Shown here: one piece after another, positions 22,561-45,482 of the stretch
Layout: each line of letters starts with the position of its first letter
Numbering within the stretch: position 1 is the first letter of the stretch
Source of the DNA: Mesorhizobium sp.
Lineage (GTDB): Bacteria; Pseudomonadota; Alphaproteobacteria; Rhizobiales; Rhizobiaceae
Reading direction: 5' to 3'
Assembly (NCBI RefSeq): GCF_004962925.1
Contig: NZ_SUEO01000001.1
Span: 1-64,000, forward strand
DNA length: 64,000 nt
Translations under genes and position numbers: made by a program
The notes under the pieces: generated by a model
Database searches by the model: none
The model's input: only the letters and a program-made list of their open reading frames with translations
Told to the model about the DNA's origin: nothing

Positions 22561-22710
22561 GTCCTCGCTCTGCCATTCGATCGTTTCAGTGCGTATCCAG
22601 CGGACTAAAGCGACCGCGGTGTTTTCAAAACCCCTCGCCAACAGGTGGGCTCGTCATTGGCATAGGTAAATGGGGGAGGTTCGCCAGGTTGTGGAATTCA
22701 GCCGTAGCCT

Positions 22711-24111: not shown

Positions 24112-24134
24112 TGAACAAATCCTATGGTGTGCTG

Positions 24135-26937: not shown

Positions 26938-27018
26938 GTCACCTCGGAGGTCGGGCTTGTTAAAAAATGATGCGCGCTGGTGTTGGGCCGAATGGCCGGC
27001 CCAACACCGAACGTGATC

Positions 27019-28143
27019 TTACATCACTGCGTCGGTGTAGCGCTGGATCCAGTCGTCCCGCACACTTGCCAAATAGGCGGGATCGATCTTGTTGACGTGC
27101 TCTTTGATGACCTCGGGAGAGGGAATGAAGGGACTCTTTTTTGCACCTTCCGACAGCACCGCATCCTGATTGATCGGGCCGTACCAAACGTCTTCTGCCA
27201 TCTTGCCTTGAACCTCGCCATCAAGTGCGTGATTCATGAGGGCGGCAACTACCGCGGAATCGCCCGGATGTCCCTTCGGCACGACCATGTACTGCAAGTC
27301 GACAAAAAATCCCTCGGCAAGACTGTAGGTACCGCTGACATTGAACTCGGGTTTGGAGATGAATGGCGAGAGTTCAAGGGGTGAATAAACCCCGCCCGCG
27401 TTTAGGGACTGGGAGCGGAACAGATCACCGATTTGGTTCGCGTTCGATGTGATGGTAAGGCTCTTGCCTTTGAGCTTTTTCAAAATCTCGAACCCACCAT
27501 CCGGGTTGTGGATGTCGCCGCCCGCCGCCTTTGCCGCGACGATTATCAGTTCAAGCGCGTAGAGATTGTCCGGAGGCGGCAGAAAGATTTTGCCTTCATT
27601 TGCTGCGTCCCACAGGACGTCATAGGATTTGGGCGCCGACGGATAAGTCTTGGTGTTGTAGACGAGACCGTCACTCCACAAAAAGTACCCAATCCCATGA
27701 CCCTTGGCACCGGTCTGATAATCAGGCAGCACGCGTGCCAGGTTGGGAACTGCGCTGGTATCCGGCTTCTCAAGCAGGCCGGCATCCGCGAGCGAATTGG
27801 CACCGAAGCCGGAAAGGATCACTACGTCATATTGCGGCTTGGATGCTGACGCCTTAATCTTTGCAATCATATCGGAGGTTGTGCCGGTGAGATCGGCAAT
27901 AACCTTCGCACCAGTCTTCGCCTCGAAGGTCTTAAGGATGTTCTTGACAGCTGCCTGACCGGTAGCGTCTGACCAAGTAAGTACGCGGATCTCTTTGCCG
28001 GCAAACTGCTGGGCCGACGCCTTGCGGACCCATGGTGCTGGCAGAATCGTGGCGACTGCCGCGATCGCCGATCCGGTGAGAAATGTGCGCCGGCGAAGAG
28101 GCCGGTCGAAGATGTTGTTGTTCGACATGTTGAAGTCTCCCAT
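27019..28143 (-). CDS. ABC transporter extracellular substrate-binding protein (PotD/AfuA-like), TAT-type signal
   Basis: 374 aa; RRRTFLTGSAIAAVATILPAPWVRKASAQ, then KEIRVLTWSDATGQAAVKNILKTFEAKTGAKVIAD. Confidence 0.93.
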   Translation of the reverse strand: MGDFNMSNNNIFDRPLRRRTFLTGSAIAAVATILPAPWVRKASAQQFAGKEIRVLTWSDATGQAAVKNILKTFEAKTGAKVIADLTGTTSDMIAKIKASASKPQYDVVILSGFGANSLADAGLLEKPDTSAVPNLARVLPDYQTGAKGHGIGYFLWSDGLVYNTKTYPSAPKSYDVLWDAANEGKIFLPPPDNLYALELIIVAAKAAGGDIHNPDGGFEILKKLKGKSLTITSNANQIGDLFRSQSLNAGGVYSPLELSPFISKPEFNVSGTYSLAEGFFVDLQYMVVPKGHPGDSAVVAALMNHALDGEVQGKMAEDVWYGPINQDAVLSEGAKKSPFIPSPEVIKEHVNKIDPAYLASVRDDWIQRYTDAVM

Positions 28144-28168
28144 TGCTGTGGCTCGCCCTGTTTCCTGA

Positions 28169-29305
28169 TCACTTGATCAGGAGTTCGCGCCTGTTCGAGC
28201 CTGTGAGGCGCTCAACTCCCTTGCTGGTCACGACCACCGTCTCGCTGATGCCGAACCCGCAGGCCAGCGCGAGCATGTGAAAGGCCATCCCCTCCTTCAG
28301 TTCCCAATCTTCTTGTTCGTTGAAGTCGAGTGCTTCCCATTCGGCGGTCTTTGGCGGGAAGCCGATGCCGGTCGAGTAGCCGCTACGGTTATAATATTCC
28401 GGCCGGATCTTGCGGATCGGCTTTCGCACCAGCGCATCGACTTCGCGGGCTGAAGCACCAGGCTTCATAGCAGCAATGCCGGCATCCTGAGCGGCTACAA
28501 CGATGTCAGCAGCCCGCCTTACCTCATCCGACGCGTGACCGATGGCCACTGTGCGCATCTGGGTTGCGTGATAGCGTTCGAGACATCCGTACAGCTCGAA
28601 AAGCACCAATTCGCCACGCTGAATGATCTTCGGGCTCCAGTTCGCGTGGCACACGTTATAGCGGTATCCGGACATGATGTGGTGTGGCAGGCCGGTATAC
28701 TCGCAGCCGGCGTTGACGCCGGCCGCGAAAACCGCCGCAGCCACCTGCGCCTCCGTGGCTCCGTCGCAAATCGTCGCAAACGCGACCTGCTGCTCGATCT
28801 CGGCGATCTGTGCTGCACGTCGGATGTAACCGATCTCGGCAGCTGATTTGATCACTCGCACGCGATCGACAAGCAAGCTCGCATCCACGATGGTGGCGTC
28901 GCTAAGTCCATTGGTCAGTGCATCAGCGATTGCCGATGTCAAAAACCAGCATTTCTTCTCCAGTCCGACGCGTTTGCCGGCAATGCCGAAACGGCGCACC
29001 AAGTCGAGCGTTTTTTCCACGAGGTCGTCGCCCTCTTTCCAGGTGAAGGCGTCCGGCAGCCACGAATATTCGTCGACATTGCCCTTTTCCAGGAGTCGCA
29101 ACAGCAGCTGCGGGTCACCACTCTGGGCGAGCACAAGGGTCTGGTAGGCAAAATAACCCGACGTCTGGTGTCCGGTGAGGTAGTAGATATTTTCGGGTGC
29201 GTGCAGCAAAAGAATATCGATGCCCCGCACCGACATTTCTGACTGCACCCGCGCCACGCGCGTCTTGAATTCTTCGGTCGCAAACGCTTGCCGGTTCCCG
29301 GTCAT
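28169..29305 (-). CDS. M24-family (creatinase / ectoine hydrolase / Xaa-Pro peptidase-like) hydrolase, cluster A
   Basis: 378 aa; IDILLLHAPENIYYLTGHQTSGYFAYQ, GYSTGIGFPP; paralogous to 39626-40780. Confidence 0.9.
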   Translation of the reverse strand: MTGNRQAFATEEFKTRVARVQSEMSVRGIDILLLHAPENIYYLTGHQTSGYFAYQTLVLAQSGDPQLLLRLLEKGNVDEYSWLPDAFTWKEGDDLVEKTLDLVRRFGIAGKRVGLEKKCWFLTSAIADALTNGLSDATIVDASLLVDRVRVIKSAAEIGYIRRAAQIAEIEQQVAFATICDGATEAQVAAAVFAAGVNAGCEYTGLPHHIMSGYRYNVCHANWSPKIIQRGELVLFELYGCLERYHATQMRTVAIGHASDEVRRAADIVVAAQDAGIAAMKPGASAREVDALVRKPIRKIRPEYYNRSGYSTGIGFPPKTAEWEALDFNEQEDWELKEGMAFHMLALACGFGISETVVVTSKGVERLTGSNRRELLIK

Positions 29306-29728
29306 TTGCTCATCCCATGTATGTGCATTTAAAGTGCCGAAATAGAGAGCCGAAAGTGGCGGCCTTCCCGGAACGAGGTGCAGGCGGCGGGAGGGTGCTG
29401 TCTTTACCTTGCGATCCGTGAAAGCCGCCTAAGCCGCCGCTCGCCGCCGACGAGCACCCGGCCGGATCCCGGTTCCGCGACTTGGGGTGAACTTGTCGCC
29501 CGGATGTCTCAATTTCACCAATGACGACCGGGCGCTGTCCAGACGCAGCAACGGCCGCCCGCAACGATTCCAACTGCTCTAAATTGCGATCTGCCATGGG
29601 TCCCAGCCAGTCAACTCGACATCCCACTTAATCCATACTTCCATATTATGGGATTTACAACATATTTCTTTCATATAATGATAACATTTTAGACGACCTT
29701 CAATCCCATTCGAGGTGGCAGCAGCTAC

Positions 29729-31108
29729 ATGACCATTGCCCGACAGTTTGCAGATTTCCTTTTTGAGTTTCGTGCCCTCAACGGCCCTGCTGTTGAACAA
29801 GCGAAAACGGCGATGATGGACCTGACGACAGCTGCGCTCGCTGGCGCCAATGAAGATGCTACGGTCGCAACGCGAAAGGCGGCCCTGTCCGTGTGGCAGC
29901 ATGGAAACTCGCCGATTTGGTTCACGCCGCATCGCACCAGCGCGGCCGGCGCAGCTCTCGTCAATTCTACAAGTGCGTCGAGCTTGGATCTGGACGATGG
30001 TCATCGCGCGGCGGCCGGACATCCCGGGGCATCGATCATCCCCGCTGTTATGGCCACGGCAGCGGAATGCAAATGTTCGACCAACCGAATACTACCCGCG
30101 ATCGCGCTCGGCTATGAGATCGCCGTCCGCGTGGCTGCCTCGCGGGATTTCGGAACTCTGACGACGCTCGTTTCAGGCCCATGGGTTGGCTACGGCGCTG
30201 CCGCGGCCGCCGCTTGGTTGCGCGGCTTAGAGCCCCACGCAATCGAGCAGGCCATTGCCATAGCCGGCTCGACTGCGCCAAACCTTTCCGCGATCGCATA
30301 CTCGAAGGTAATGGGCAATCACGTGAAAGAAGGCATCCCCTGGGCTACCGCTACAGCTCTGGTCGCCGTCGAACTGGCGGCCCAGGGCTTTACCGGGCCG
30401 GTCGACCTGCTTGACAACGAAAGCGTGTTCAACCGTAGTCGCCTGCTCGATGGGCTTGGAGCCGAGTGGACGATCAACGGCATTTACTTCAAGCCTTACG
30501 GCTGTTGCCGTTGGGCGCATTCCGCGATTGATGCCGTCTTGGCCCTTAAGGCGGAGCACGGGACAAATACCGCGGATATAGACGCGATAGAGATTGACAC
30601 GTTCTCATGGGCACTTCGTCTGAACAATGAAGTGGCGCCACGCACGACGGAATCCGCCCAATATAGTGTCCCGTTCTGCGTGGCCATGGCACTGACAAAA
30701 GGAGCAGAGGCGATGGTGCAGATCACGGACAAGGACTTAACTCATTCCGGTACGATCGCGCTTGCGCGCCGAATTCAGTTGCGGATCGATCCTGGCTTTG
30801 ACGCGACATTCCCGCAGTCCGTTCCAGCACGCGTGGTAATAAGGACGAAGAACGAGCGGCTGTTTAAGGAGGTTCTCGCCCCAATGGGTGAGCCCACAAA
30901 CCCGATGGGCTGGGCCAAGTTAGAGAACAAGTTTCGAAACGTGGCACAGCCCAGACTGGAAGAGCAGCATCTGGAAATGTTTCTGGCGGCATTCCGGGAT
31001 CTTCGAGATGGCGAGCTAGGTAGCCTGATGGAGACTTTGCAGCGACCAATTCCGCGCCTTCTGTCGACAGACGCCTGCGGTCGAGACAACGACCACTACC
31101 GCCTGTAG
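29729..31108 (+). CDS. MmgE/PrpD family protein, cluster A
   Basis: 459 aa; LDLDDGHRAAAGHPGASIIPAVMATAAE, VKEGIPWATATALVAVELAAQGFTGP, YFKPYGCCRWAHSAIDA. Confidence 0.93.
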   Translation: MTIARQFADFLFEFRALNGPAVEQAKTAMMDLTTAALAGANEDATVATRKAALSVWQHGNSPIWFTPHRTSAAGAALVNSTSASSLDLDDGHRAAAGHPGASIIPAVMATAAECKCSTNRILPAIALGYEIAVRVAASRDFGTLTTLVSGPWVGYGAAAAAAWLRGLEPHAIEQAIAIAGSTAPNLSAIAYSKVMGNHVKEGIPWATATALVAVELAAQGFTGPVDLLDNESVFNRSRLLDGLGAEWTINGIYFKPYGCCRWAHSAIDAVLALKAEHGTNTADIDAIEIDTFSWALRLNNEVAPRTTESAQYSVPFCVAMALTKGAEAMVQITDKDLTHSGTIALARRIQLRIDPGFDATFPQSVPARVVIRTKNERLFKEVLAPMGEPTNPMGWAKLENKFRNVAQPRLEEQHLEMFLAAFRDLRDGELGSLMETLQRPIPRLLSTDACGRDNDHYRL

Positions 31109-31173
31109 CTAGCCTCGTTGAAGACTGTCGTGATAATTGGGCGACGACCTTGTGGATCGTTTTGATCCGCTGA

Positions 31174-31995
31174 TTGATTGAGGTGCACGTGAAGACGATG
31201 GCTGAAGGCGAGGAGAAGGCCACAGGGACCCAATTGCTCGATCGTTCCATCGCCATCTTGAATCATCTTGGAGAGCTAGGCCGTGGCGGCGCGCGCGTTT
31301 CCGATATTGCCGAAGCCTTCGGGCTAAATATGTCGACGGCACATCGCATCATCAGCGGGCTGGAGCGGCATCGCTTCATCGAGCGCGACGAGACAACAAA
31401 GCGGTACAGGCTGGGGCTAGCCCTTTTTGCGCTTGGAGCGAAGGCCGCAGACACGACGGGAATGCGACGGGTTTGTCAGCCTGCCTTGCTGCGAATTGCG
31501 GCCGAGACAGGCGATACTGTCTTTCTTATGGCTCGCAACGGCTTCAACACTGTCTGCGTCGACCGTCAAGACGGCGGCTACCGGATCGACAGCCTCACCG
31601 GACAGGTGGGTGGCCAGATACCCCTTGGTGTTGGACCCGCGAGCCAGGCGATCTTGGCAATGCTGCCACCAAAGCAAGCCGAAGTCATTCTAGAAGCCAA
31701 CGCACCACAATTCGAGCGCTACCATGGATTGACGGCGAACGTGATCCGGCAGGGACTTCCAGAGATTCGCAAGCGCGGCTATGCCGTCGATGACGGGCAC
31801 CTTGTGGAAGGAATTTCAGCGATAGCCGTACCAATCATCTTAGAGAGCGGAGATGTGGCCGGTGCGATCGCCATTAACATGACGAGCGCAAGGCTCCTGA
31901 GGAGCACCGCAAGAGACTTCGTTCAAATCCTTCGACGCGAGATCGCTGAAATCGAACGCACGATGAATCCACATGATGTTTCGATTGCCAGCTAG
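31174..31995 (+). CDS. IclR-family transcriptional regulator
   Basis: 273 aa; N-terminal wHTH (SDIAEAFGLNMSTAHRIISGLERHRFIERDETTKRYRLGLALFALG) and C-terminal effector domain. Confidence 0.95.
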   Translation: MIEVHVKTMAEGEEKATGTQLLDRSIAILNHLGELGRGGARVSDIAEAFGLNMSTAHRIISGLERHRFIERDETTKRYRLGLALFALGAKAADTTGMRRVCQPALLRIAAETGDTVFLMARNGFNTVCVDRQDGGYRIDSLTGQVGGQIPLGVGPASQAILAMLPPKQAEVILEANAPQFERYHGLTANVIRQGLPEIRKRGYAVDDGHLVEGISAIAVPIILESGDVAGAIAINMTSARLLRSTARDFVQILRREIAEIERTMNPHDVSIAS

Positions 31996-32015: not shown

Positions 32016-32837
32016 CTATTGGGACTTAAGCCCGTGGCTCTTGAAATATGATCGGAGGCAGAGGACGGCGAGCCCCTGCAGTAAGAGGCCGGTTGATGTG
32101 ACCATGCTCGCTACAGCAGCGACGGCTGGTGTCAGCTCAACGTTGAGCGAGCGCCATATCAGGCTCGGCAATGTCAGCGTTGAGCCTTGTCCGATAAAGA
32201 TCGCCACGACGGCCTCGTCGAACGAAGCCATGAAAGACAACGTGGCGCCCATGACCACAGCGGGGAGTATGAAGGGTAGGAGAATCGTACGCCACGCATA
32301 AAGCCGCGTTGCACCGAGTGTTTCCGCCGCTTCGATCAAGCCGTCATCAAAATATTCGAGAGCCGTCGAGACTGTCATATAAGTAAACGGCATGATCAAG
32401 ATGGCGTGGCCCAGCGCGATTCCCAGCTTGGTGCCGATCAAACCCAGTTTCGCGAAAACGAAAAACAGGGCAATAGAAAATACGATGACTGGGATGATCA
32501 GCGGCCCCAGCGCAAGAAAGCTGATGATACGCTTGACCTTGTCGGGTAACGGATAGGTCGCCACCGCCAGGCTAACTGCACAGGGCAGCGCCAAGACAAC
32601 AGCCATGAGAGCCACTTCCAGCGAGTTGATTGCCGCCCCGATCCAGATTGGGTCGCCGAGCGTCTCTCGGTACCAGTAAAACGACATGCTCGGAGGCGGG
32701 AAGGAAAGGAACTTTCCCGAAGACAGGGACATGACACCAACCACCGGAAGCGGCAGGACGAGGAAAAGCAGGACGACGCACATCCACACGCCCAAGATCA
32801 CCCCGCCTTTGCCACTTTTTTCTGGAGCATCCATCAT
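32016..32837 (-). CDS. ABC transporter permease (PotC-like), cluster B
   Basis: 273 aa; EAAETLGATRLYAWRTILLPFILPAVVMGATLSFMASFDEAV. Confidence 0.93.
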   Translation of the reverse strand: MMDAPEKSGKGGVILGVWMCVVLLFLVLPLPVVGVMSLSSGKFLSFPPPSMSFYWYRETLGDPIWIGAAINSLEVALMAVVLALPCAVSLAVATYPLPDKVKRIISFLALGPLIIPVIVFSIALFFVFAKLGLIGTKLGIALGHAILIMPFTYMTVSTALEYFDDGLIEAAETLGATRLYAWRTILLPFILPAVVMGATLSFMASFDEAVVAIFIGQGSTLTLPSLIWRSLNVELTPAVAAVASMVTSTGLLLQGLAVLCLRSYFKSHGLKSQ

Positions 32838-34174
32838 ACCGCTTTCCTGTACCCGATCGCGTCCAAGATATTCGCCATCTTGCTAGAGCCTGTCGCCTCC
32901 GCAGCGACGATGGTTCGCTCTGCTCTGGCCGGTTCAAGCCCATACCTAACCAATGTCCTGAATTTCTGCTCGAGCTCATCAAGGGTCATCGGGTTTCTCG
33001 CGTCGCCTTTGGGAAAATCGACACGGCCTTCAAAGGATCCTAGCTGGCTTATGAGACGAACTCTCGACCCCGTCTGTGCCGGGAAACTTGCGTCCAAATC
33101 GCGGTCGGCCCGGACCGTCACCTTTCTGGCCAAATCGATCCGAGCAGCATCAGTGAGGTCGCCCATATCGGGGGTTAGCATGGCTTGTGCACCCTCAATC
33201 GCTGCAACAGCCAGACAATACGGTACGCTGAACTGGGCTTCGAAATTGGAAGTGGGAGACGTCTTGTTGTTTAGCCGTGCGGCGGGGCCGATAGTGTCGA
33301 CAACGATCGCCTCGATTGCTTCGGCACCGACGCCATGGTTCTGCATGAGCATCAAAAGCGCGTCGATCGATGAATGGATCCATCGGCAGCAGCAATATGG
33401 CTTCGTATAGGTCGCATCGATCTTTAACGTGTTGCCGAGGCTTCTGGTAATCAGAGCACCTTTGAACAATGATGCAATGTCAAATATGTCAAGAGACGCA
33501 GTTACGCCTTGTTCGGCCAAACGCACGGCGAAATACCCGCCTAGTGTGCTCCAAGGAATGCCTTCCTTTATCTGGCCTAGCTTTGTGCTGGTACCACTGG
33601 GAATCTGGCAAGCACGATGCGTTGCTGCGATCGCTAACGCTTGTGAAAGAGCGTCGCACTCAAGGCGCCTTAAATGGCCCACACTTGCAGCGACCGCGAT
33701 TGACGACCAGCGGCCGGTTGCGTAATCCCGCCGTTCGATCCGATCTGTTTGCGCTGCCGCGATACGGATACCCACTTCATACCCAACTGCGATTGCACTG
33801 AGCAGGTCGCTCTCGCTCGCACCCATGATTTCTCCCTCGGCGAGAACCGCGGGGATCACGGCAGCACCTGGGTGGCCGATGGCCTCCCGATGACCGTCAT
33901 CCACGTCCAAGGCACTGGCAGCGGCGCTGTTGCAAAACGCCGCTGCACACGATGACAATCGATCTGTGGAAAACCAGACCCCTGCCCCTCCGCTCTGGAA
34001 GAGATTGGCGGCGACTGCCCGCGCAGCCTTCGCTGGATCGGTTGCGAACCCGGCGGCGGCTGCCGCGACAAGATCCGTAACGAGTTCCGCAATTTTGGCT
34101 CGTGTAAATTCGGAAGTATCGGAAATTGAGAAGCGATTGACGTAGTCCGCAACGGTTTCGACAACAAAAGTCAT
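32834..34174 (-). CDS. MmgE/PrpD family protein, cluster B
   Basis: 446 aa; ALDVDDGHREAIGHPGAAVIPAVLAEGE, IKEGIPWSTLGGYFAVRLAEQGVTA, YTKPYCCCRWIHSSIDA; paralogue of 29729-31108. Confidence 0.92.
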   Translation of the reverse strand: MTFVVETVADYVNRFSISDTSEFTRAKIAELVTDLVAAAAAGFATDPAKAARAVAANLFQSGGAGVWFSTDRLSSCAAAFCNSAAASALDVDDGHREAIGHPGAAVIPAVLAEGEIMGASESDLLSAIAVGYEVGIRIAAAQTDRIERRDYATGRWSSIAVAASVGHLRRLECDALSQALAIAATHRACQIPSGTSTKLGQIKEGIPWSTLGGYFAVRLAEQGVTASLDIFDIASLFKGALITRSLGNTLKIDATYTKPYCCCRWIHSSIDALLMLMQNHGVGAEAIEAIVVDTIGPAARLNNKTSPTSNFEAQFSVPYCLAVAAIEGAQAMLTPDMGDLTDAARIDLARKVTVRADRDLDASFPAQTGSRVRLISQLGSFEGRVDFPKGDARNPMTLDELEQKFRTLVRYGLEPARAERTIVAAEATGSSKMANILDAIGYRKAV

Positions 34175-34177
34175 GAC

Positions 34178-35296
34178 TCAACGACGCTCTACCGACATCC
34201 AACAACGCTCGTTCAGTGAACGGCTGATCGCCTCGAGGGCGAACTGGTTTGCCAATCCGTCTGCAAAGTCCGGACCTTCGGGTATCCTGGCACCGGCTAT
34301 TTCGTCCCGAAAATGGCGCGCCTGACCAGTAGCGAAACAGTCTCTCCAGGTTGCAGCTTTGTCGGTACCCTCCGTAAAGGGTTTATCTATACTGATCGGT
34401 CGAAACTCTTCGTCGGGACCGCGGCAGCCAAGCACCTCGGCGAACGGCCAGGATTTGGTCATTCGCCAGCCGAGAGTGCCCTTTTCACCGCTGATGGCAA
34501 CCTGGAAACCGAAGCCGGGCAATGAACTCCAACTGACGTGGAATTGTCCCTCCGCGCCATTTTCGAAGCGGCCGAGCCATGAGCAAACATCGTCGACAGT
34601 GACGTTACGCATGGTTCCGCTCATGCGGTCAGCTCGCTCATGGACCAGCGTGGCGGCGTTGGCGCATATCTCATCGATCTCTCCGACGAGCCATCTGGCA
34701 AGGTCCAAAGCATGGCATCCGTACTCCATGAAGGCGCCGCCGCCGGATCGTGCGGCGTCCATCACCCAATGGAACGGCTCATCAGGAAAAAAGAACTGAG
34801 GGAAGTTATTGGAGAACATGAAGCTGTGGATTTTTCCAGTGTAGCCGTTGTCCACGAGTTGCTTGAGCTGCCTCATAGCCGGGCTATACCTTAAGACGAA
34901 GCCTATTTTTGTGATCACGTTTGATCTGGCTGCCAAGTCGGCGAGCTCACGCGCCTCATCAACAGTCCTGGCCAAAGGTTTCTCGCACAGAACATGCACG
35001 CCGCCTTCGATGGCGGCCTTTGCAACCGCGTAATGCGTGTCCTCCGGCGTCGCGATGATGATCGCGTCTAGTCCGGCTGATAGCATTGTACGAGCGTCTC
35101 GATACACCTTGCAGCCTGACACCCTGTCGGCTAGCGATGCCGCACGATCCTGATCGGGGTCCGCCACAGCCACAATGTCTATCCCCGGCAGATGGGAGAA
35201 CGACGGTACGTGCGCCCGTTCGGCCCAAAGTCCTGCGCCGGCAATTCCGATGCGGATACGATGTGAGCGAGGTTGGGAGGTCGCTGGGAGTATCAT
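34178..35296 (-). CDS. Gfo/Idh/MocA-family oxidoreductase (ORF track start 35335; likely start 35296)
   Basis: IRIGIAGAGLWAERAHVPSFSHLPGIDIVAVADPDQDRA, VLCEKPLARTVDEARELADLA. Confidence 0.95.
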   Translation of the reverse strand: MILPATSQPRSHRIRIGIAGAGLWAERAHVPSFSHLPGIDIVAVADPDQDRAASLADRVSGCKVYRDARTMLSAGLDAIIIATPEDTHYAVAKAAIEGGVHVLCEKPLARTVDEARELADLAARSNVITKIGFVLRYSPAMRQLKQLVDNGYTGKIHSFMFSNNFPQFFFPDEPFHWVMDAARSGGGAFMEYGCHALDLARWLVGEIDEICANAATLVHERADRMSGTMRNVTVDDVCSWLGRFENGAEGQFHVSWSSLPGFGFQVAISGEKGTLGWRMTKSWPFAEVLGCRGPDEEFRPISIDKPFTEGTDKAATWRDCFATGQARHFRDEIAGARIPEGPDFADGLANQFALEAISRSLNERCWMSVERR

Positions 35297-36162
35297 TTTG
35301 GTGCGCCACCTCGAGCCAGTATCCTGACGATCCACAAGCAGCCCAATGTGATCGCCAGAAGAATGACGCCGCCGGCGGCGGCAAACCCAAAATCGCCGAA
35401 CTGCGTTACACTACGCGCTATCAATTGTGCCAGCATGGTCTGCCTCGGTCCCCCTAGCAGTGCGGGAGTGATAAAAAACCCGACACCGATGATGAAGACC
35501 ACGCAACCGGCGTTGACGATCGAGGGCATCGCCAGCGGAAGATAAACAGTCGCTAGAGCGAAAACACGACTTGCGCCGAGGCCCTCCGCTGCGGCGACAA
35601 GATGGTAGGGAACCTTCCTGAGGCCAGAAAACGCCGTGAGGATGAAAACCGGCAACAAAAAATGGACCATCCCGACAATTACGGCTGTTGATGAACCTAA
35701 AAGACTAGACGGCCCCCAGCCGACAACATCGAGTAGTCTCGATAGTGGGCCTTGGGCGCCAAAGATCACCATCCAGGAGAAGGTTCGTATCAGCGAGCTG
35801 GTTAGAAAGGACAAAACCAGGACGGCCAGCATCAGCTTATTGAGCGCTCTTCGATCCGAGTGCGCAAGGCTGTATGCGACAGGGGTTCCAGCGATAGCGC
35901 AAATCGTGGCTGCTGCGACGGAGATCCAAATTGTGCGCCATGCCACCCGAAGATACGTCGGTGACGTTATCAAAGTGTCGTAGTTTGCGAATCCTAGATG
36001 AGGATCAGTCACGCTGCGCAGAGCCAGTACACCGAGCGGCACAGCGAACAAGCAAAGCACAAACAAGAGGCCGGGTCCGATAGCCACGAAATTTGCTAGC
36101 CGAGAAGATGAGGATGGCTGAGCAATCATGGCGAGACCACCGCGACCCTCTCCAGCGGCCAC
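35293..36162 (-). CDS. ABC transporter permease (PotB-like), cluster B
   Basis: 289 aa; VAAAEGLGASRVFALATVYLPLAMPSIVNAGCVVFIIGVGFF. Confidence 0.93.
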   Translation of the reverse strand: MAAGEGRGGLAMIAQPSSSSRLANFVAIGPGLLFVLCLFAVPLGVLALRSVTDPHLGFANYDTLITSPTYLRVAWRTIWISVAAATICAIAGTPVAYSLAHSDRRALNKLMLAVLVLSFLTSSLIRTFSWMVIFGAQGPLSRLLDVVGWGPSSLLGSSTAVIVGMVHFLLPVFILTAFSGLRKVPYHLVAAAEGLGASRVFALATVYLPLAMPSIVNAGCVVFIIGVGFFITPALLGGPRQTMLAQLIARSVTQFGDFGFAAAGGVILLAITLGCLWIVRILARGGAPK

Positions 36163-37208
36163 ATTGCAGTGGCTTGTCCGCCGGCTGGAAAATCCGCCCT
36201 TGAATAGGCGGTCAGCTTGCCGAGATTGGTCTGCATTACAACTTCATGATGAGTGCCCATAAAAGTCGTCTTGATGACCACTCCATTCGTCATGACAGAA
36301 GGTGTCGCGGGCTCCTGACCGAAAACAGCGTCCTCAGGGCGGAGTACGACTTGGACGTTATGACATTCGACTGGCATAACCAGTCCACGTTTTGGCAATA
36401 AGCATTGTTGGCCGTCCGAAAGCTCCACCAGGTTAGAGTGGGCGTTTGCATCTCGAATTCGTGCGAAAACGAGATTGCTGTCCCCGATGAAGCCGGCGAC
36501 GAAACTGGTTTTAGGATTGAGGTAAAGTTCCTCTGGCCTGCCGACCTGCTCTAACTGGCCGTCTTTCATGATCACGACCATCGTTGAAAGCGCGAGCGCT
36601 TCGCTCTGGTCGTGGGTGACGTGGATAAACGTTATTCCGACGTCCCGCTGCAATTGCCTTAGAAACTCTCGCATGTCGCTTCTAAGGTGCTTGTCCAGCG
36701 CGCTTAGCGGCTCATCCAGGAGGAGGACTTTTGGCCGACACACAAGCCCCCGAGCAAGCGCAACGCGCTGCTGCTGACCTCCTGACAGTGTGCCCGGATA
36801 GTTGTCTGCGCATCCAGTCAGCTGGACACGCTCTAAATATTGGTCAGCCAGCTCGCGACGTTCCCTCTTGCCTAGCTTTCGGACACGCAACGGATACTCG
36901 ATGTTTTCTCGAGCGGTCAGATGGGGAAACAACGCATAGTTCTGAAAAACCATGCCGAGTTCCCGTTCCCGGGCCGGACGTCGAGTCACATCCGCCCCGG
37001 AAATCTTGATCGTGCCGGCGTCGGCGACGCTGAAGCCGGCGACGATCCGTAGTAACGTGGTCTTGCCGGACCCGCTCGGACCAAGAAGCGTGACATAAGC
37101 ACCGTTTGGAATCTCCAAGTCGATCCCGCGAAGGACCTCCTTCTCTCCAAAACGCTTAGCAATGCCTCTGATAGAGATTGCGGCATCGACGGGAACGTTG
37201 TCCATCAT
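36126..37208 (-). CDS. ABC transporter ATP-binding protein (PotA-like), cluster B (ORF track start 37286; likely start near 37208)
   Basis: LLGPSGSGKTTLLRIVAG, LSGGQQQRVALARGLVCRPKVLLLDEPLSALD. Confidence 0.96.
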   Translation of the reverse strand: MMDNVPVDAAISIRGIAKRFGEKEVLRGIDLEIPNGAYVTLLGPSGSGKTTLLRIVAGFSVADAGTIKISGADVTRRPARERELGMVFQNYALFPHLTARENIEYPLRVRKLGKRERRELADQYLERVQLTGCADNYPGTLSGGQQQRVALARGLVCRPKVLLLDEPLSALDKHLRSDMREFLRQLQRDVGITFIHVTHDQSEALALSTMVVIMKDGQLEQVGRPEELYLNPKTSFVAGFIGDSNLVFARIRDANAHSNLVELSDGQQCLLPKRGLVMPVECHNVQVVLRPEDAVFGQEPATPSVMTNGVVIKTTFMGTHHEVVMQTNLGKLTAYSRADFPAGGQATAMWPLERVAVVSP

Positions 37209-37239
37209 GAATGGTCCAGGAGCCACACTGCGCTCACCC

Positions 37240-38289
37240 TTATTGGGTGAGCCATTCGTTGAAACGAGTCGTGACGTCACGCGCATTTTCGGCCCAATAA
37301 TTGGCGCCCCATGGTACGACCTTGGTCAGATCCTGAGGGTCGATCGTGAACTTCTGACCGTTTCCCAGCAACGAGTAGGCACCTTTCAGCGCTGGCGCAT
37401 ATCCAATACATTTGGCGAAGTCCGCCTGGCGTTGGGGATCATGGATATGGGCGAGAAAGCGCGCTCCAACCTCGGCGTTCCCGCCTTTTGGCAGCACCCA
37501 GAGATCCGGCTTGACGATCGCCTGATCGGGTGAGAAGTCGACGTGGACCCCTTCTTTCTGCAGCGCCTTTACGCGTCCATCCCAGCCTGCGCCGATAACT
37601 GCCTCCTTTTGCTGGAGCAATGCGATCTGCTGTGTGCCGAAATCGTACCAGGCAATGTCGCTCTTGATTGTATCGAGTTTCTTCAAGGCGCGTTCGACGT
37701 CGAGTGGATAGAGTTTTGAAGGTTCAACGCCATCGGCCAGCAGCGCGATCTCGAGCACGCCGAAATCGACGACGGAATTGGAAAACAGGCGCTTGCCGGG
37801 AAACTTCTTGAGGTCGAACACGTCTGACCATGTGCGAGGTTTCTCGCCGGGGAAGGCATCGGAATTGTAAGTTACGACGATACCGAAGATTTCGGATGGA
37901 AGCGCATAAACTGTGTTATCTTTCGTGGTGACCATGCCAGGAAAGTCGACGAGCCCTCCCTTGCTCTGTAACAGTTTTAGATCAAGCGGAAGCACCCAGC
38001 CGTTCGCGACCAACTGTTGCAATTGGCCCGGATCCGATGTCGCCACGTCCCATTCGACTTTTGCCGATTCCTGCTGAGCCCGCCAAACTCCCGTATCATA
38101 GGCGGGACTACCGACGACGACCTTGATGCCGGTCTCCTTCTCGAAGGAATCGGAATAGACTTGTTTCACGCAGGCATCATAGGAGCCGCCAGAGGCTGAA
38201 ATGGTCAACTTCTGTTGAGCATACGCGGGAGCCAACGACAATGCTGCGACGGCCATTCGAATAGCCAATTTCGATGCGATGGACTTCAT
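37240..38289 (-). CDS. ABC transporter extracellular substrate-binding protein (PotD-like), cluster B
   Basis: 349 aa; Sec signal then KLTISASGGSYDACVKQVYSDSFEKETGIKVVVGSPAYDTG. Confidence 0.93.
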   Translation of the reverse strand: MKSIASKLAIRMAVAALSLAPAYAQQKLTISASGGSYDACVKQVYSDSFEKETGIKVVVGSPAYDTGVWRAQQESAKVEWDVATSDPGQLQQLVANGWVLPLDLKLLQSKGGLVDFPGMVTTKDNTVYALPSEIFGIVVTYNSDAFPGEKPRTWSDVFDLKKFPGKRLFSNSVVDFGVLEIALLADGVEPSKLYPLDVERALKKLDTIKSDIAWYDFGTQQIALLQQKEAVIGAGWDGRVKALQKEGVHVDFSPDQAIVKPDLWVLPKGGNAEVGARFLAHIHDPQRQADFAKCIGYAPALKGAYSLLGNGQKFTIDPQDLTKVVPWGANYWAENARDVTTRFNEWLTQ

Positions 38290-38316: not shown

Positions 38317-39636
38317 TTAAGTTATATGCTGGCCAAATACCGCGCCGTTCTTAAGCGTGTATCGGACCAAGTTTTGGTCAATCAGATAGGGCAAATCGCG
38401 ATAGGTTGGCGCATCTAGGACAACTAGGTCGGCTGGCCGGCCAACCGCTATCTTGCCGGCGATTGACGCGCCTGCGACCGCGCAAGCAGCGTTCCAAGTT
38501 GCCGCGACCAACGCCTCGGCCGGGTCCATTCGCAACCAGGAACATGCTAGGCCCATGACGAAGGGCATCGAAAGCGTCGGACTGCCCGGCCCATGATCGG
38601 TGCCAAGGGCAATCGGTACTCCGCTCTCGATGAGTTGGCGGCCGTCCGCGAACCTGGGGGCAAGCAGATAGTGACGCGTCGCCGGAAGTAAGACGGCGAC
38701 CGTCTGTGCCTGGGCCAATGTTTGCGCGGTGTCTTTTCCAAGGAAGCACACATGGTCGGCTGAAACGGCGCCAAGCTCAGCTGCGAGCTCGGCGCCGCCC
38801 GCGGCGGAAAATTCGTCGGCGTGTATCTTGAATTTGAGACCGCGCCGGCCTGCTGCCTGCAATATTTGCCGTGCTTTTCCGTCGGCGAAGGCACCTAGAT
38901 CACAAACAACATCGCAGAACCGTGCATAGGGAGCCACGGCTGGTAGAACCTGGTCGATGACGTATTTGGCATATTCCGCACCTCCTCCAAATCGTGCCGG
39001 CGTGCCCAAGGCGACATGGAAAGTTGAAACCAGATCGACAGGCTGGGAAGCTGAAACCTCGGCGATGATGTCCAGCGCCGCGCGCTCGCCTTCTGGGACA
39101 ACCCAGTAACCGGTTTTGATTTCCGCAGTGGTTGTCCCATTCAGCAATGCCTTCGCCAGCCTTGCCACCAACGCCTGCTTCAGGTCGCTTGAGGTTGCTT
39201 CGGTGCTTTCGCGAATTGTGCGGGCGACGCCGCCGCCCTTGGAACTGATCTCACCGTAACCAGCGCCTGCGATCCGCATTGGATACTCGTCTGCCCGCGA
39301 TCCGCTATAGAGCAGGTGGGTATGGCAGTCGACAAAACCAGGTACCACCGTGCCTCCGTATGCATCAAGAACCCTAGGCACTGCCCCTTTCGGCAAGCCA
39401 GCTGCCACTCGTTCGGCGGGCCCAAAATCTCTTATCCGTCCGTCAACGACATGAATTGCAGCATGCCTGATCGACTTTAGACTTCTCAGTGCACCCTTCT
39501 GAGGCCCCGGACCGAATTCATCGAGGGGTGTTAGTTCCGCGATGTTCGTGATTAGCAGCCCGCCAGAATCGCCGTTCCCGAGATCGGAATTCGGGCCGGA
39601 AGTGGCGCTGATCGACGTGGTCGGGTTATTGAACAA
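38317..39636 (-). CDS. hutI: imidazolonepropionase (HutI)-like amidohydrolase
   Basis: 439 aa; VVPGFVDCHTHLLYSGSRADEYPMRIAGAGYGEISSKGGGV, EIKTGYWV, FKIHADEFSAAGGAELAAELGAVSADH, LGTDHGPGSPTLSMP; no hutU/hutH/hutG nearby, so histidine pathway role doubtful. Confidence 0.8.
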   Translation of the reverse strand: MFNNPTTSISATSGPNSDLGNGDSGGLLITNIAELTPLDEFGPGPQKGALRSLKSIRHAAIHVVDGRIRDFGPAERVAAGLPKGAVPRVLDAYGGTVVPGFVDCHTHLLYSGSRADEYPMRIAGAGYGEISSKGGGVARTIRESTEATSSDLKQALVARLAKALLNGTTTAEIKTGYWVVPEGERAALDIIAEVSASQPVDLVSTFHVALGTPARFGGGAEYAKYVIDQVLPAVAPYARFCDVVCDLGAFADGKARQILQAAGRRGLKFKIHADEFSAAGGAELAAELGAVSADHVCFLGKDTAQTLAQAQTVAVLLPATRHYLLAPRFADGRQLIESGVPIALGTDHGPGSPTLSMPFVMGLACSWLRMDPAEALVAATWNAACAVAGASIAGKIAVGRPADLVVLDAPTYRDLPYLIDQNLVRYTLKNGAVFGQHIT

Positions 39637-40780
39637 TATAGAGCTCCCGCGGTAGTGATGTCAGGCGTTCCGAACCCGTCTCCGTCACCAGAATAGTCTC
39701 GCTGAAGGAGATGCCGTTGGCATTGACGAGCATGTGAAATATCATCCCCACCTCTAGCAACCAGGTATCGCCTGCCATAAAGTCACACACCTCCCACTCA
39801 CCAGAAACCGGCGGAAAGCCGATGCCCAAGGAATAGCCAACACGCGGATAATAGGTTTTCCGAAGTCCTGCCTCTAAGACCGGTTGGCGTACAGCCGCGT
39901 CGACTTCGCCAGCAATTGCGCCTGGCTTCATGATGCTGAAGGCACGGTCTTGGCACTTTATGAGTAGATCAGCGGCCTGAGCGACTTCGGCAGTCGGCGC
40001 ACCCATCACGGCAGTACGCATCATCGCTGCACTGTAACGCTTCACGCAACTCGTGATCTCGAATTTGAGGACGTCGCCGGTCTCGATCACCTTCTCGGTC
40101 GGCGTGGCATGACCGATCTTCATTCTATAACCCGATGAAAGGTAATTCGGCAGGCTTGTGTACTCGGAACCGCCTAGGACTTGTTGTTCCTGCATCGTCG
40201 CCGCGATTTCGAGTTCTTTTTTTCCGACGGCGAGGGCCTCAAGTCCTGCCCGCATCGCAATGTCGGTTATTTCGGCAGCTCGACGCGCATAAGCGATCTC
40301 CTGCGACGATTTGATGAGTCGCACGCGACCGACGATACCTGACCCATCGACTACTTTATTCGGCCTCGCAACATGGCAAAGAGCCTCGTAGTCTCTTACT
40401 GCCAAGTTGAAGCAGGTTTTTTCGACCCCGATTGGGTCGCCGGCTGCCGTCCATCCAAGTTCAGCCAGCCACCGACCGGTCACGGAGGCCGGATCTTCGT
40501 TGTCGAGATAAACGGCCTGCCGGTCGAGAGCCAGCCATGAATACTCGTCAGCATTGGTCCTTTCCAATTCACGGACCAATAACAGCGGCTCACCTTCGGC
40601 AGGGACGAACAGGACCTGGTAAGCGAAAAAGCCAGAAGTGTGATAGCCGGTGAGATAGCAGATGTTGTGTGGCGAATGCACGAGCAGGCCAACCATACCA
40701 CGCTGCTGAATGGCGCCTTGGGCCTTCGCTAGCCTCTCGCGATATTCTTGAAGCGAAAACGCCATGTTCCGTCCAGTCAC
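39626..40780 (-). CDS. M24-family hydrolase, cluster B (first gene of the operon)
   Basis: 384 aa; MVGLLVHSPHNICYLTGYHTSGFFAYQVLFVPAEGEPLLLVRELERTNADEYSW; paralogous to 28169-29305. Confidence 0.9.
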   Translation of the reverse strand: MTGRNMAFSLQEYRERLAKAQGAIQQRGMVGLLVHSPHNICYLTGYHTSGFFAYQVLFVPAEGEPLLLVRELERTNADEYSWLALDRQAVYLDNEDPASVTGRWLAELGWTAAGDPIGVEKTCFNLAVRDYEALCHVARPNKVVDGSGIVGRVRLIKSSQEIAYARRAAEITDIAMRAGLEALAVGKKELEIAATMQEQQVLGGSEYTSLPNYLSSGYRMKIGHATPTEKVIETGDVLKFEITSCVKRYSAAMMRTAVMGAPTAEVAQAADLLIKCQDRAFSIMKPGAIAGEVDAAVRQPVLEAGLRKTYYPRVGYSLGIGFPPVSGEWEVCDFMAGDTWLLEVGMIFHMLVNANGISFSETILVTETGSERLTSLPRELYIVQ

Positions 40781-40853: not shown

Positions 40854-40874
40854 ATTTTTCTTGTCAAGAAAATT
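40854..40874. promoter_or_regulatory. 21-bp palindrome, candidate operator (site 1)
   Basis: ATTTTTCTTGTCAAGAAAATT, perfect TTTTCTTG/CAAGAAAA dyad around a central T; between the divergent M24 gene and the XRE-DctP regulator. Confidence 0.7.
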
Positions 40875-40950: not shown

Positions 40951-42177
40951 GTGAGGAGGCTGTCGCGACCGGAGGCTAGCGGGCAAGGAGTGATGATGGA
41001 CGCACGATCCGATGTGGAGAAGCAGATCAACGGCTTGGTTGGAAAACGGCTTCGGGAAGCCCGGAAGGCCAAACGTTTCAGCCTTGAGGCGCTCGCGGGA
41101 AAGGTGGGCATGTCTGTGTCGCAGCTATCAAAGCTCGAAACGGGAAAGGCCCCAGCGTCGATCGCAGCTCTGGTGCGTTTCGGCCTAGAACTGGATCGGC
41201 CGGCGCAATATTTCCTTCAGTCGGATTCCGAAATGCCGCGCTGTTTGGGCACTTTGGTTCCATCCTGGGATCCTGAGGGCAGAGCCATCGAGATGTTCTC
41301 GAGCCTAGTCAACCAAAAGACAGGCCACGATCTTGCGATATCGGTATTTCCGGCAGGGCAACTTGGTCCCGCCGAAACTCAAGTACGGGCTCTCGTCAAT
41401 GGAATCATCGATATCTTTGTCGAAAGCCTCGGGTTTTTTCAGAGCTACTCGGATCCGATCAAACTAGCATCACTCCCGTTTTGCTTCGACGATGAAATCC
41501 ATCTGGAGCGATTTTCCGAGAGCTCCATGTTTGATAGAGAAGTCAGGCAGGTCCTCCGGAGCAATTCGGTCGAACTTCTAAATCCGAGTTTGAAGTGGAA
41601 GCGCGGTCCTTCCCTAGTTTTGTTATCTCAGACGCCTATTTTGTCTCCAGATGATCTTAAGGACCTGCGGATAAGATGCCCTGAAAACGATACTATGTTT
41701 CGCTATCTCGAGGTGATGGGATGTCGACCTATCGTTGTTCCGTGGAATGAAGTGGTGGACGCCTTCCAGGATCGCAAATTCGCGGCGATGATTACCAACC
41801 TCAGCCATGTCGTGAGCATGCGCTTTACGCGATTTGCTCGGTTTATGACAGCCTTGGACTATAGGCCGCTAGATCTGACATTTGCAATGAACTTAAAACG
41901 TTATCAAATTCTCGCCCCCCACATTCAAAGCGGGCTGGAGCAAGCTGCTGTCGAGGCTGCTGAATATTGTTCAAATTTGCTGGGTCACACGCGCGATCTT
42001 TTGCCCGCACTATTAGAGGAGGACGGAGCGGTTTTGTGCAATGTCGGGGTAAAAGCATGGCGCGCGAAGTCCCGCCAAGCCTTCGAAGAGATGGAAAATG
42101 AAGGCGTGTGGCGCCGGGGCTTAGTCGAACAGATGAGCGCACTGGCCCAAGCCGGAGACCCACTCGAATTTTCTTGA
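40951..42177 (+). CDS. XRE-family HTH regulator fused to a TRAP/DctP-like solute-binding domain
   Basis: 408 aa; HTH VGKRLREARKAKRFSLEALAGKVGMSVSQLSKLETGKAPASIAALVRFGLELD then DctP-like ISVFPAGQLGPAETQVRALVNGIIDIF..LASLPFCFDDEIHLERF..SPDDLKDLRIRCPENDTMFRYLEVMGCRPIVVPWNEVVDAFQ; no signal peptide. Confidence 0.88.
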   Translation: MRRLSRPEASGQGVMMDARSDVEKQINGLVGKRLREARKAKRFSLEALAGKVGMSVSQLSKLETGKAPASIAALVRFGLELDRPAQYFLQSDSEMPRCLGTLVPSWDPEGRAIEMFSSLVNQKTGHDLAISVFPAGQLGPAETQVRALVNGIIDIFVESLGFFQSYSDPIKLASLPFCFDDEIHLERFSESSMFDREVRQVLRSNSVELLNPSLKWKRGPSLVLLSQTPILSPDDLKDLRIRCPENDTMFRYLEVMGCRPIVVPWNEVVDAFQDRKFAAMITNLSHVVSMRFTRFARFMTALDYRPLDLTFAMNLKRYQILAPHIQSGLEQAAVEAAEYCSNLLGHTRDLLPALLEEDGAVLCNVGVKAWRAKSRQAFEEMENEGVWRRGLVEQMSALAQAGDPLEFS

Positions 42178-42187
42178 CACGAAAATT
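42167..42187. promoter_or_regulatory. 21-bp palindrome, candidate operator (site 2), overlapping the regulator stop codon
   Basis: AATTTTCTTGACACGAAAATT, 18/21 identical to site 1; upstream of the C45 gene at 42246. Confidence 0.7.
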
Positions 42188-42245: not shown

Positions 42246-43277
42246 ATGACTCCGGTGTCTCTCATGCCAATTGTCGTGCTTTCGGGCTCTCCATACGAGC
42301 GTGGTTTTCAGCACGGCAATCGCTTCGCCGGCGCAATCGGTCAGGCGCTTGGCGCTCGTTTAGCGTCCTTGTCAACCGCAGAATTGTCGGAGGTGTATCA
42401 GCGCGCCAGCACAGTTCTAGCGAAGATTGACATGATGGCTCCCGAGGTTGGCGCGGAGATACACGGAATCGCAGATGGCGGCGGGCGCGACGTGTTGGAC
42501 ATTGTGTTGCGTAGTTCATTCGAACTTCTTACGCCGTGCGCTTTGACCGGCTGCAGCGGTCTGGCAGTGCAGACTGGCGACGGCGCCTTGATTGCGCAGA
42601 ACTGGGATGGACCGCCGGGGAGCGATGCGGAACAGGCACTTTTCATTCATGTCAGCGCAGGCGGCTTCGAATTCGCGACCGTGGCATCAGCCGGGGGCCT
42701 CGGTTGGGTGGGGCTCAACCGAGCAGGCTTTGGGCTCGTCAATAATGACCTTATCTTGACGTCGCGTTCAGACGGAATTCCGAGCCAGATTGTCCGTCGG
42801 GTTTTTCTTGGCTGCCAAGACGTGGACGCAGCAATTGAGAGAGCTAAATCGCTGCCACATATGGCGGGACGGGCATATCTTTTCGGCGATGCGTCCAACC
42901 AAATCGCTTCTGTCGAGGTTTCAGCCCGACATGGTGTGTCGGTGTTCAGATCGGCGTCATTCTTTGCTCACACCAATCATGCGTTGGATGCCCAAATTCG
43001 CGATGACGAGGATTCTGAGCTGTTGGCCAGGCAATACCCTTCTAGCCAGAAGCGGCTCGAGATTCTGAAGGCACGGGGTGCGCATTGCACAAACGCCGAC
43101 GAGGTAATGGTTACTTTGCGGGATCAAACCGATGCACCAGACGCGGTCTGCAAGCAGACCTCAGTGCGTGAGCCAACGCAAACTGCCTTTTCGGTCGCTA
43201 TGCAGTGCTGGGACAGAACCTTGTTCCTCGCCCGAGGAATGCCCTCGGTTACCGGATATCAGCGGATTAGCCTGTAA
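42246..43277 (+). CDS. C45-family Ntn hydrolase / acyl-CoA:6-APA acyltransferase-like protein
   Basis: 343 aa; SPYERGFQHGNRFAGAI, ALTGCSGLAVQTGDGALIAQNWDG, GWVGLNRAGFGLVNNDLI. Confidence 0.85.
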   Translation: MTPVSLMPIVVLSGSPYERGFQHGNRFAGAIGQALGARLASLSTAELSEVYQRASTVLAKIDMMAPEVGAEIHGIADGGGRDVLDIVLRSSFELLTPCALTGCSGLAVQTGDGALIAQNWDGPPGSDAEQALFIHVSAGGFEFATVASAGGLGWVGLNRAGFGLVNNDLILTSRSDGIPSQIVRRVFLGCQDVDAAIERAKSLPHMAGRAYLFGDASNQIASVEVSARHGVSVFRSASFFAHTNHALDAQIRDDEDSELLARQYPSSQKRLEILKARGAHCTNADEVMVTLRDQTDAPDAVCKQTSVREPTQTAFSVAMQCWDRTLFLARGMPSVTGYQRISL

Positions 43278-43305: not shown

Positions 43306-44454
43306 ATGAAAATCACCGACGTAAATATCTATTTGCTGAAATCCGGTCGTCTGCATCCTGTCTTGGTTGAAGTCTCGACGGACGAAGGCATAACTGGGGT
43401 CGGCGAGGCGGGAATAGCCTATGGTGTTGGCGGGACCGCGGCGGCAGGGATGATCAAGGATCTCTCGGAACGATTCTTACTCGGCAAAGATCCCGGCCGG
43501 ATCGAAGAGCTGTGGTCTGCAATGTATGATCATTCGTTCTGGGCAAAGAATGGTGGCGCAATCATCTTTGCCGGCATCAGCGCGATAGAGCAGGCTCTCT
43601 GGGACATCAAAGGCAAATGTCTCGACGTCCCCGTTTATGAGCTTTTCGGCGGAAAAATCCGGGACCGTGTGCGAGCCTACGCAAATGGCTGGTACGGTGC
43701 CTCTGATACGCCGGATGAATTTGCCCGTTCGGCAGAACGTCCTCTGAAGGACGGATATCGGGCGCTAAAACTTTACCCGTTGGCTCAGCGGGTTGGTTCG
43801 GCTTTGCAACACGTGACACGGCGATCAATATCAGCCGACGCACTTGAACTTGCTTACCGCAGAGTCAAGGCTGTCCGTGATGCGGCCGGGCCCGACGTCG
43901 AACTTATGGTCGATCTCAGTGGAGGCTTGACTACCGATGAGACAATTCGGTTTTGCCGGAAACTCGATGACCTTAATATATGCTTTGTCGAAGAGCCTTG
44001 CGATCCATTTGACAATGGTGCGCTGAAGGTAATCTCAGAACAAGTTCCGATTCCGATTGCTGTTGGCGAACGCGTCTATTCGAAGTTCGGGTTCAGGAAG
44101 GTTTTCGAGTTGCAAGCCTGCGGAATTATTCAGCCGGATGTCGGAACGGCGGGAGGCTTGATGGAGACAAAGAAAATCTGCGCGATGGCCGAAGCCTATA
44201 ATATGCGCGTGGCGCCCCATGTGTGTGGAAGCAGTCTAATCGAAGCTGCAACCCTTCAGATTGAGGCAAATATCACCAATTTTATGATCCATGAACACTA
44301 TCCTGCCTTCAGGGACGACGACGGCTACGTCGAGGTGCTTGAGAATCCGCCGTCGAGCAGATCTGGATATTTCGAAATATCCGACGCGCCCGGACTGGGA
44401 GCAGTTCTTGTCAAACGAAACATCGAACCGTACCTCTGGGCCTCGTGCACATAG
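43306..44454 (+). CDS. enolase-superfamily mandelate racemase/muconate lactonizing enzyme-type protein
   Basis: 382 aa; GISAIEQALWDIKGKCLDVPVYELFGGKIRDRVRAYANGWY, VEEPCDPFDN, IPIAVGERVYSKFGFR, IIQPDVGTAGGLMETKKICAMAEAYNMRVAPH. Confidence 0.92.
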   Translation: MKITDVNIYLLKSGRLHPVLVEVSTDEGITGVGEAGIAYGVGGTAAAGMIKDLSERFLLGKDPGRIEELWSAMYDHSFWAKNGGAIIFAGISAIEQALWDIKGKCLDVPVYELFGGKIRDRVRAYANGWYGASDTPDEFARSAERPLKDGYRALKLYPLAQRVGSALQHVTRRSISADALELAYRRVKAVRDAAGPDVELMVDLSGGLTTDETIRFCRKLDDLNICFVEEPCDPFDNGALKVISEQVPIPIAVGERVYSKFGFRKVFELQACGIIQPDVGTAGGLMETKKICAMAEAYNMRVAPHVCGSSLIEAATLQIEANITNFMIHEHYPAFRDDDGYVEVLENPPSSRSGYFEISDAPGLGAVLVKRNIEPYLWASCT

Positions 44455-44621: not shown

Positions 44622-45482
44622 CTACCACCTAAAGAGGGAAGCAGCGAACGTGGGAACGACTGGCTCTCCCGCAAAGAACTGTTGGAGCTGTGCACTGGGG
44701 AATTTGCCTGATTTGAACTCACCAACAGCGTATCTATGTATGCCGCTGCCGATGAAGAGCACGTCCATGCCCTCGATTCGAGCACCCGCAACGTCGGTCC
44801 GTAGCGAATCACCAACTGCGAGCACTTCATGTCTTTCGTAGCCGAGAAGGTCGAGCACGCGTTGGTAAGCCGATGAATACGGCTTTCCATGGTAGAAAAC
44901 GTCCCCTCCCAACGCTTCGTATTGCTCGGCGAGCGCCCCCGCACAAACCACAAGTTGATCGCCAACTAAAACGACCAGATCGGGATTCGCGCAGACCATT
45001 GGAAGTTTGCGCAAAGCACATTCCTTCAACAGTGTCGCAACTTCATCTGGCGGCTGAGTGCTCCCGCCAGTGGTTAGAATAAAGTCGGCATCTCGAGGTG
45101 AAAAGACCTCGGACCGATCTAATCCCCGGAGCAAGCCCGCCAGCTCAGGTGGTCCAATGTGGAAATAGCGAGCTGCTAATGCTCTATGCCAATTGTCTGA
45201 TGGATTTTCTAGCGCCTTGTAAACCAGCTCTCCGGATGTAACAATATAGTTATATTGAGATGGCTCTATTCCCATCGATGCTAAGTGTTTAGAAACTTGG
45301 TAGGCACGACGGGGGCAAATATCAAGCCGGTTGTTTCGCAAAGCATTCATGGCAGTGATCGCGTGAGGAAAGGCAACTTTCCCGTCGTGCAAGACGCCCC
45401 ATAAATCGAGAACGACGGCACGGTACGTTTTTATAACAGCCGCGATGCCTTCAATTATGATTGGCGCTTGCAAATTATTCAT
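44622..45482 (-). CDS. HAD-superfamily class IIA hydrolase (TIGR01459/NagD-like)
   Basis: 286 aa; RAVVLDLWGVLHDGKVAFPHA, YIVTSGELVYKAL, YHGKPYSSAYQRVLDLLG, VLAVGDSLRTDVAGARIEGMDVLFIGSGIH. Confidence 0.88.
   Translation of the reverse strand: MNNLQAPIIIEGIAAVIKTYRAVVLDLWGVLHDGKVAFPHAITAMNALRNNRLDICPRRAYQVSKHLASMGIEPSQYNYIVTSGELVYKALENPSDNWHRALAARYFHIGPPELAGLLRGLDRSEVFSPRDADFILTTGGSTQPPDEVATLLKECALRKLPMVCANPDLVVLVGDQLVVCAGALAEQYEALGGDVFYHGKPYSSAYQRVLDLLGYERHEVLAVGDSLRTDVAGARIEGMDVLFIGSGIHRYAVGEFKSGKFPSAQLQQFFAGEPVVPTFAASLFRW

Follow-up and report, generated by a model that had tools for sequence, protein, structure and literature searches.

A putative one-component regulator of rhizobia combining an XRE DNA-binding domain with a TRAP receptor (DctP) domain, and its candidate operator

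A protein of 393 residues encoded in Mesorhizobium sp. (40996–42177, plus strand) joins an N-terminal XRE helix-turn-helix (HTH) to a C-terminal domain of the DctP family of TRAP receptors, and is probably a cytoplasmic one-component regulator in which the XRE domain reads a palindrome, the DctP domain senses a carboxylate, and the ligand releases repression. The stretch of DNA analysed, referred to as the window, comprises 64,000 nucleotides (positions 1–64,000, forward strand) of contig NZ_SUEO01000001.1 (assembly GCF_004962925.1). A sensor based on a retooled TRAP receptor domain had been proposed in a first-pass annotation of this DNA, and it is the best-supported reading of the protein, given a palindrome confined to the neighbourhood of the regulator and the retention of arginine R227 in the sensor domain.

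Both domains lie in a single open reading frame (40951–42177, plus strand). An upstream GTG (40951) offers an alternative start, but ATG 40996 is the likely one because homologs begin at the equivalent MDARS, and residues are numbered here from this ATG in the 393-residue form. The HTH occupies approximately residues 16–75 and is followed by a linker (about 76–84) and the DctP domain (about 85–366). In Pfam profile searches, the N-terminal part matches HTH_31 (E-value 7.6e-10, 39.4 bits against a cut-off of 27, residues 31–77) and HTH_3 (6.5e-9, 36.1 bits against a cut-off of 23), and it is weakly similar to the model PRK08154. The C-terminal part, for which a profile search had been advised, matches DctP (PF03480) at 6.7e-42 and 144 bits against a cut-off of 23.4, covering profile positions 2–282 of 286 and thus nearly the full length. 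The protein also matches NCBIfam TRAP_S1 (1.9e-28), and a PDB search with it retrieves TRAP receptors, including SiaP (best E-value 1.2e-18). Judged by these matches, the protein can be assigned both to the XRE (Cro/CI-type) regulators and to PF03480, as the first-pass annotation had recognised. AlphaFold modelling of three family sequences gave a mean pLDDT of 39 and a poor model outside the HTH; the DctP fold of the regulator therefore rests on sequence homology.

Public annotation places the family among transport proteins: the homolog on plasmid pMLa of M. japonicum (WP_044552287; L031, 15010–16182) is recorded as a TRAP transporter substrate-binding protein DctP. Taken at face value, this would make the fusion a TRAP transport receptor with a spurious N-terminal extension, a reading that is contradicted by several features and is very improbable. 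The HTH scores above the Pfam cut-off in three divergent members, the protein from the window included. The N-terminus, MDARSDVEKQINGLVGKRLREARK, runs straight into the HTH, with no hydrophobic signal sequence discernible by eye, and a whole-genome search for the permease DctM (PF06808) returned 11 matches, none on the contig of the window and hence none in the window itself, so that both absences claimed in the first-pass annotation, of a signal peptide and of a DctM gene, hold. No DctQ or DctM gene was found among the annotated neighbours of the M. japonicum homolog either. Relaxed permease-docking positions and a dedicated candidate operator, both described below, likewise argue against transport. 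The annotation of WP_044552287 overlooks the HTH, and this misannotation has likely propagated to other records.

XRE-DctP fusions occur in 5 of 147 Mesorhizobium genomes (that of the window included) and in 2 of 272 Bradyrhizobium genomes. Fusions 91% similar to that of the window are present in M. norvegicum (L001), on pMLa of M. japonicum MAFF 303099 (L031), and in Mesorhizobium sp. 131-2-5, while Bradyrhizobium sp. SRL28 encodes two copies (83% identity, L002; 52–55%, L052) and a further Bradyrhizobium genome a single member (57%); the lowest identity among family members is 52%. Misassembly of two genes, named in the first-pass annotation as the artefact to be feared, is ruled out, since several independent assemblies agree on the same single open frame, and the fusion is therefore real. 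In the diverged SRL28 paralog (L052, 8093–9625), similarity ends near residue 360 and the frame continues to 510 residues, which suggests a frameshift at the C-terminus. Outside the family, no further HTH-DctP fusion emerged from plasmids or from 398 genomes of the order, 399 of the phylum and 342 of the class in a search that scored the best few candidates per genome and can miss remote fusions; a search of viral contigs for XRE-DctP relatives found none, and an alignment widened to ordinary DctP proteins proved too divergent for scanning. Long matches in Ruegeria and Croceicoccus proved to be ordinary DctP proteins, in TRAP operons by annotation, as did one in genome G183 (L014), after which comes a DctM-like ORF. 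In contrast to the fusion, the nearest ordinary DctP relative (31%; L012, 844–2412) has a signal-peptide-like N-terminus and belongs to a DctM-DctQ-DctP operon. A hydantoinase/oxoprolinase-like gene comes next after this operon and hints weakly at a cyclic-amide-derived acid as the ancestral ligand.

R227 of the sensor domain aligns with Arg147 of SiaP, the carboxylate-filter arginine, which 96.8% of DctP proteins possess (PMC4646407). Six fusions were compared with 25 ordinary DctP proteins, and none deviates at this position; the carboxylate-binding arginine that the first-pass annotation had singled out for checking is thus kept in all family members. The second arginine of the SiaP pocket, Arg127 (PMC9352664), has given way to Leu or Val in all fusions, so that, judged by alignment, their pocket is not the same as in ordinary DctP proteins, and the position of SiaP Asn187 is Thr or Ser. 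The Lys two residues before the filter arginine, which corresponds to K143 of SiaP, where the K143E substitution cuts transport (PMC9971032), is variable among fusions; the conserved Glu of helix alpha-5 (E172/E170) is E, D or K, and another conserved DctP Glu is replaced by Arg at position 279. Overall, the pattern in the alignment fits a domain that would have lost permease docking and retained carboxylate binding. The substitutions at the Arg127 and Asn187 positions, together with changes at other conserved positions, could instead mean that small-molecule binding has been lost from the DctP part, which would then serve only for dimerisation or for contact with other proteins, leaving the regulator constitutive or otherwise controlled. 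Such a loss of binding is improbable in view of the invariant carboxylate filter and of the stretches LSHVVSMRFTR and YRPLDL, which are unchanged down to 52% identity, a degree of conservation that indicates continuing selection on this region. Sensing of a small carboxylated compound by the DctP domain accordingly is the preferred reading of the pocket.

The regulator gene is flanked on both sides by a 17-bp palindrome of the general form TTTTCTTGWCAAGAAAA. Candidate operator 1 (40856–40872; TTTTCTTGTCAAGAAAA) lies between the regulator and the divergent M24 gene, whose operon is on the minus strand, and candidate operator 2 (42169–42185; TTTTCTTGACACGAAAA, one mismatch relative to TTTTCTTGTCAAGAAAA) overlaps the last codons of the regulator upstream of the C45 gene. 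Across the 6.7-Mb genome, no other site comes within one mismatch; a looser pattern allowing two mismatches adds one further site elsewhere. In L001, L031, L032 and G824, the palindrome is found at the same two positions as in the window; in Bradyrhizobium, it stands upstream of all three regulators, and G904 has two more sites. At one mismatch or less, the palindrome is present in 5 of 5 Mesorhizobium genomes with the regulator versus 1 of 142 without, and in 2 of 2 Bradyrhizobium genomes with the regulator versus 2 of 270 without. Pooled over both genera, this amounts to 7 of 7 regulator genomes against 3 of 412 others (Fisher p ~3e-13), counts that are not independent, because few genomes carry the family and horizontal transfer links some of them. 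In all regulator-bearing genomes of both genera, the palindrome adjoins the regulator genes. Among the Bradyrhizobium members, whose regulators are 52–83% identical, 16–17 of the 17 positions of the palindrome core are kept, and the identity of the 90-bp flanks is about 0.4, the chance level of shuffled sequence. This footprint is strong evidence that the palindrome is what the XRE domain would read.

It is proposed that the XRE domain binds the palindrome as a dimer at two places, one in the gap separating the regulator from the M24-HutI-PotD-ABC operon, the other in front of the C45-enolase pair. In the most likely logic, the target operons would be repressed when ligand is lacking, and the grip on DNA would weaken once the DctP domain closes around its ligand. 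The compound sensed would probably be the solute that the PotD-type ABC system takes up, or a compound formed early in its breakdown. Repression is favoured because both strands of the palindrome include a −35-like hexamer (TTGACA/TTGTCA). Any overlap with a −35 element is no more than suggestive, as scanning for promoters revealed no sigma-70 consensus (−35/−10) at the palindromes. That same absence would suit an activated promoter, and some regulators with periplasmic-binding-protein folds, such as those of the LysR family, are activators. The architecture and operator could therefore belong to an activator that, when ligand-bound, sits beside the promoters and recruits RNA polymerase. This alternative is considered unlikely, as a protein bound over −35-like hexamers on both strands would be expected to block the polymerase, and XRE regulators of simple type commonly repress the catabolic genes they control. 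Ligand-released repression is thus retained as the working mechanism.

The genes facing the two sites form a putative regulon for uptake and breakdown. Site 1 faces a minus-strand operon that begins with an M24 family hydrolase (39626–40780; profile and PDB searches) and continues with a HutI-like amidohydrolase (38317–39636; TIGR01224, above cut-off), a PotD-type ABC solute-binding protein (37240–38289; profile and PDB searches), an ABC transporter ATP-binding protein (36126–37286) and permease (35293–36162), a Gfo/Idh/MocA family oxidoreductase (34178–35335), an MmgE/PrpD family protein (32834–34174), and a second ABC transporter permease (32016–32837), with the ATPase, both permeases, and the MmgE/PrpD protein identified by synteny with pMLa. 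Site 2 precedes, on the plus strand, a C45 (penicillin acyltransferase-like) autoproteolytic hydrolase (42246–43277) and an enolase-superfamily protein (galactonate dehydratase-like; 43306–44454), both assigned by profile searches and likely co-transcribed. The closest solved relative of the M24 protein is the ectoine hydrolase DoeA, although its score falls below the DoeA cut-offs, and the nearest solved relatives of the PotD-type protein are polyamine/GABA and opine receptors. The sites of G904 stand at the start of a PotD-ABC-C45 unit, of a further PotD gene and of an M24-FAD oxidoreductase pair; that of SRL28 (L052) leads a unit of FAD oxidoreductase, permeases, M24, PotD and ATPase genes. 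Across the loci whose neighbours were covered, the palindrome-headed units carry a PotD-type binding protein and M24, with C45 in two lineages; the 10-kb contig of the 83% identical SRL28 copy (L002) contains a PotD-type gene and lacks M24 and C45 genes. The C45 proteins of the window and G904 are 46% identical, and the M24 proteins of G904 and SRL28 share 81% and 39% identity with that of the window. From this gene content, we infer that the substrate of the regulated pathway would be a carboxylated, nitrogen-containing compound.

Two other features of the window deserve mention. A second, diverged cluster with the same kind of gene content (19554–31995) encodes an M24 hydrolase (28169–29305; 43% identical to that at 39626–40780), a PotD-type binding protein, an ABC ATPase, permeases, an amidase, Dak1/Dak2 proteins, an FAD oxidoreductase, and an MmgE/PrpD protein; here, an IclR-type regulator (31174–31995) takes the place of XRE-DctP, and the palindrome is absent. 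Furthermore, a TIGR01459 HAD-type gene (44622–45482) is 5 residues shorter than its M. norvegicum ortholog; a short stretch close to the N-terminus has been deleted in frame, where LAICLLSNSPRR reads LDICPRR.

Regulators of the LacI/GalR, LysR, and Btr-type AraC families use periplasmic-binding-protein folds as cytoplasmic ligand sensors, in combination with DNA-binding families and binding-protein classes other than those of the fusion; to our knowledge, none uses the TRAP DctP family. The fusion resembles DctP-type TRAP receptors (PF03480) such as SiaP, which ordinarily serve nutrient importers on the outer side of the cell membrane, in its homology over nearly the whole domain and its Arg147 equivalent, and differs from them in being cytoplasmic, in its N-terminal XRE domain, in lacking a signal peptide and any detected cognate DctM, and in the loss of the Arg127 equivalent. 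BzdR, in which an XRE HTH is fused to a shikimate-kinase-like sensor (mentioned in PMC6079105), follows the same plan of an XRE DNA-binding part and, C-terminal to it, a ligand sensor borrowed from a different protein family; this sensor is unrelated to the DctP fold. The same design of binding protein plus DNA-binding domain underlies engineered chimeras for benzoate (PMC6079105), whereas XRE-DctP is natural and has its own conserved candidate operator. No description of an XRE-DctP regulator was found in the literature searched, most subscription journals lying outside it, and an apparent DctP match in a paper on ChiS referred to the nucleotide dCTP. The sensor principle is thus already known, and the natural XRE-DctP family is previously undescribed within that literature.

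Taken as a whole, the evidence leans, with less assurance than for the mechanism itself, towards a natural regulator family in which a TRAP receptor domain has been captured as a cytoplasmic sensor that works without a TRAP permease, has an operator and a regulon of its own, and takes a carboxylated nitrogen compound of the M24/C45 pathway as ligand. The TRAP receptor family would thereby join the few binding-protein folds converted into transcription regulators in nature. The predicted operator and regulon make this reading directly testable, and it corrects the misannotation of the fusion as a transport receptor. The family would also represent a natural counterpart of hand-built biosensors, drawing on a DctP family with many known ligand specificities, and may open the way into a so far uncharacterised pathway of uptake and breakdown borne on rhizobial plasmids and chromosomes.
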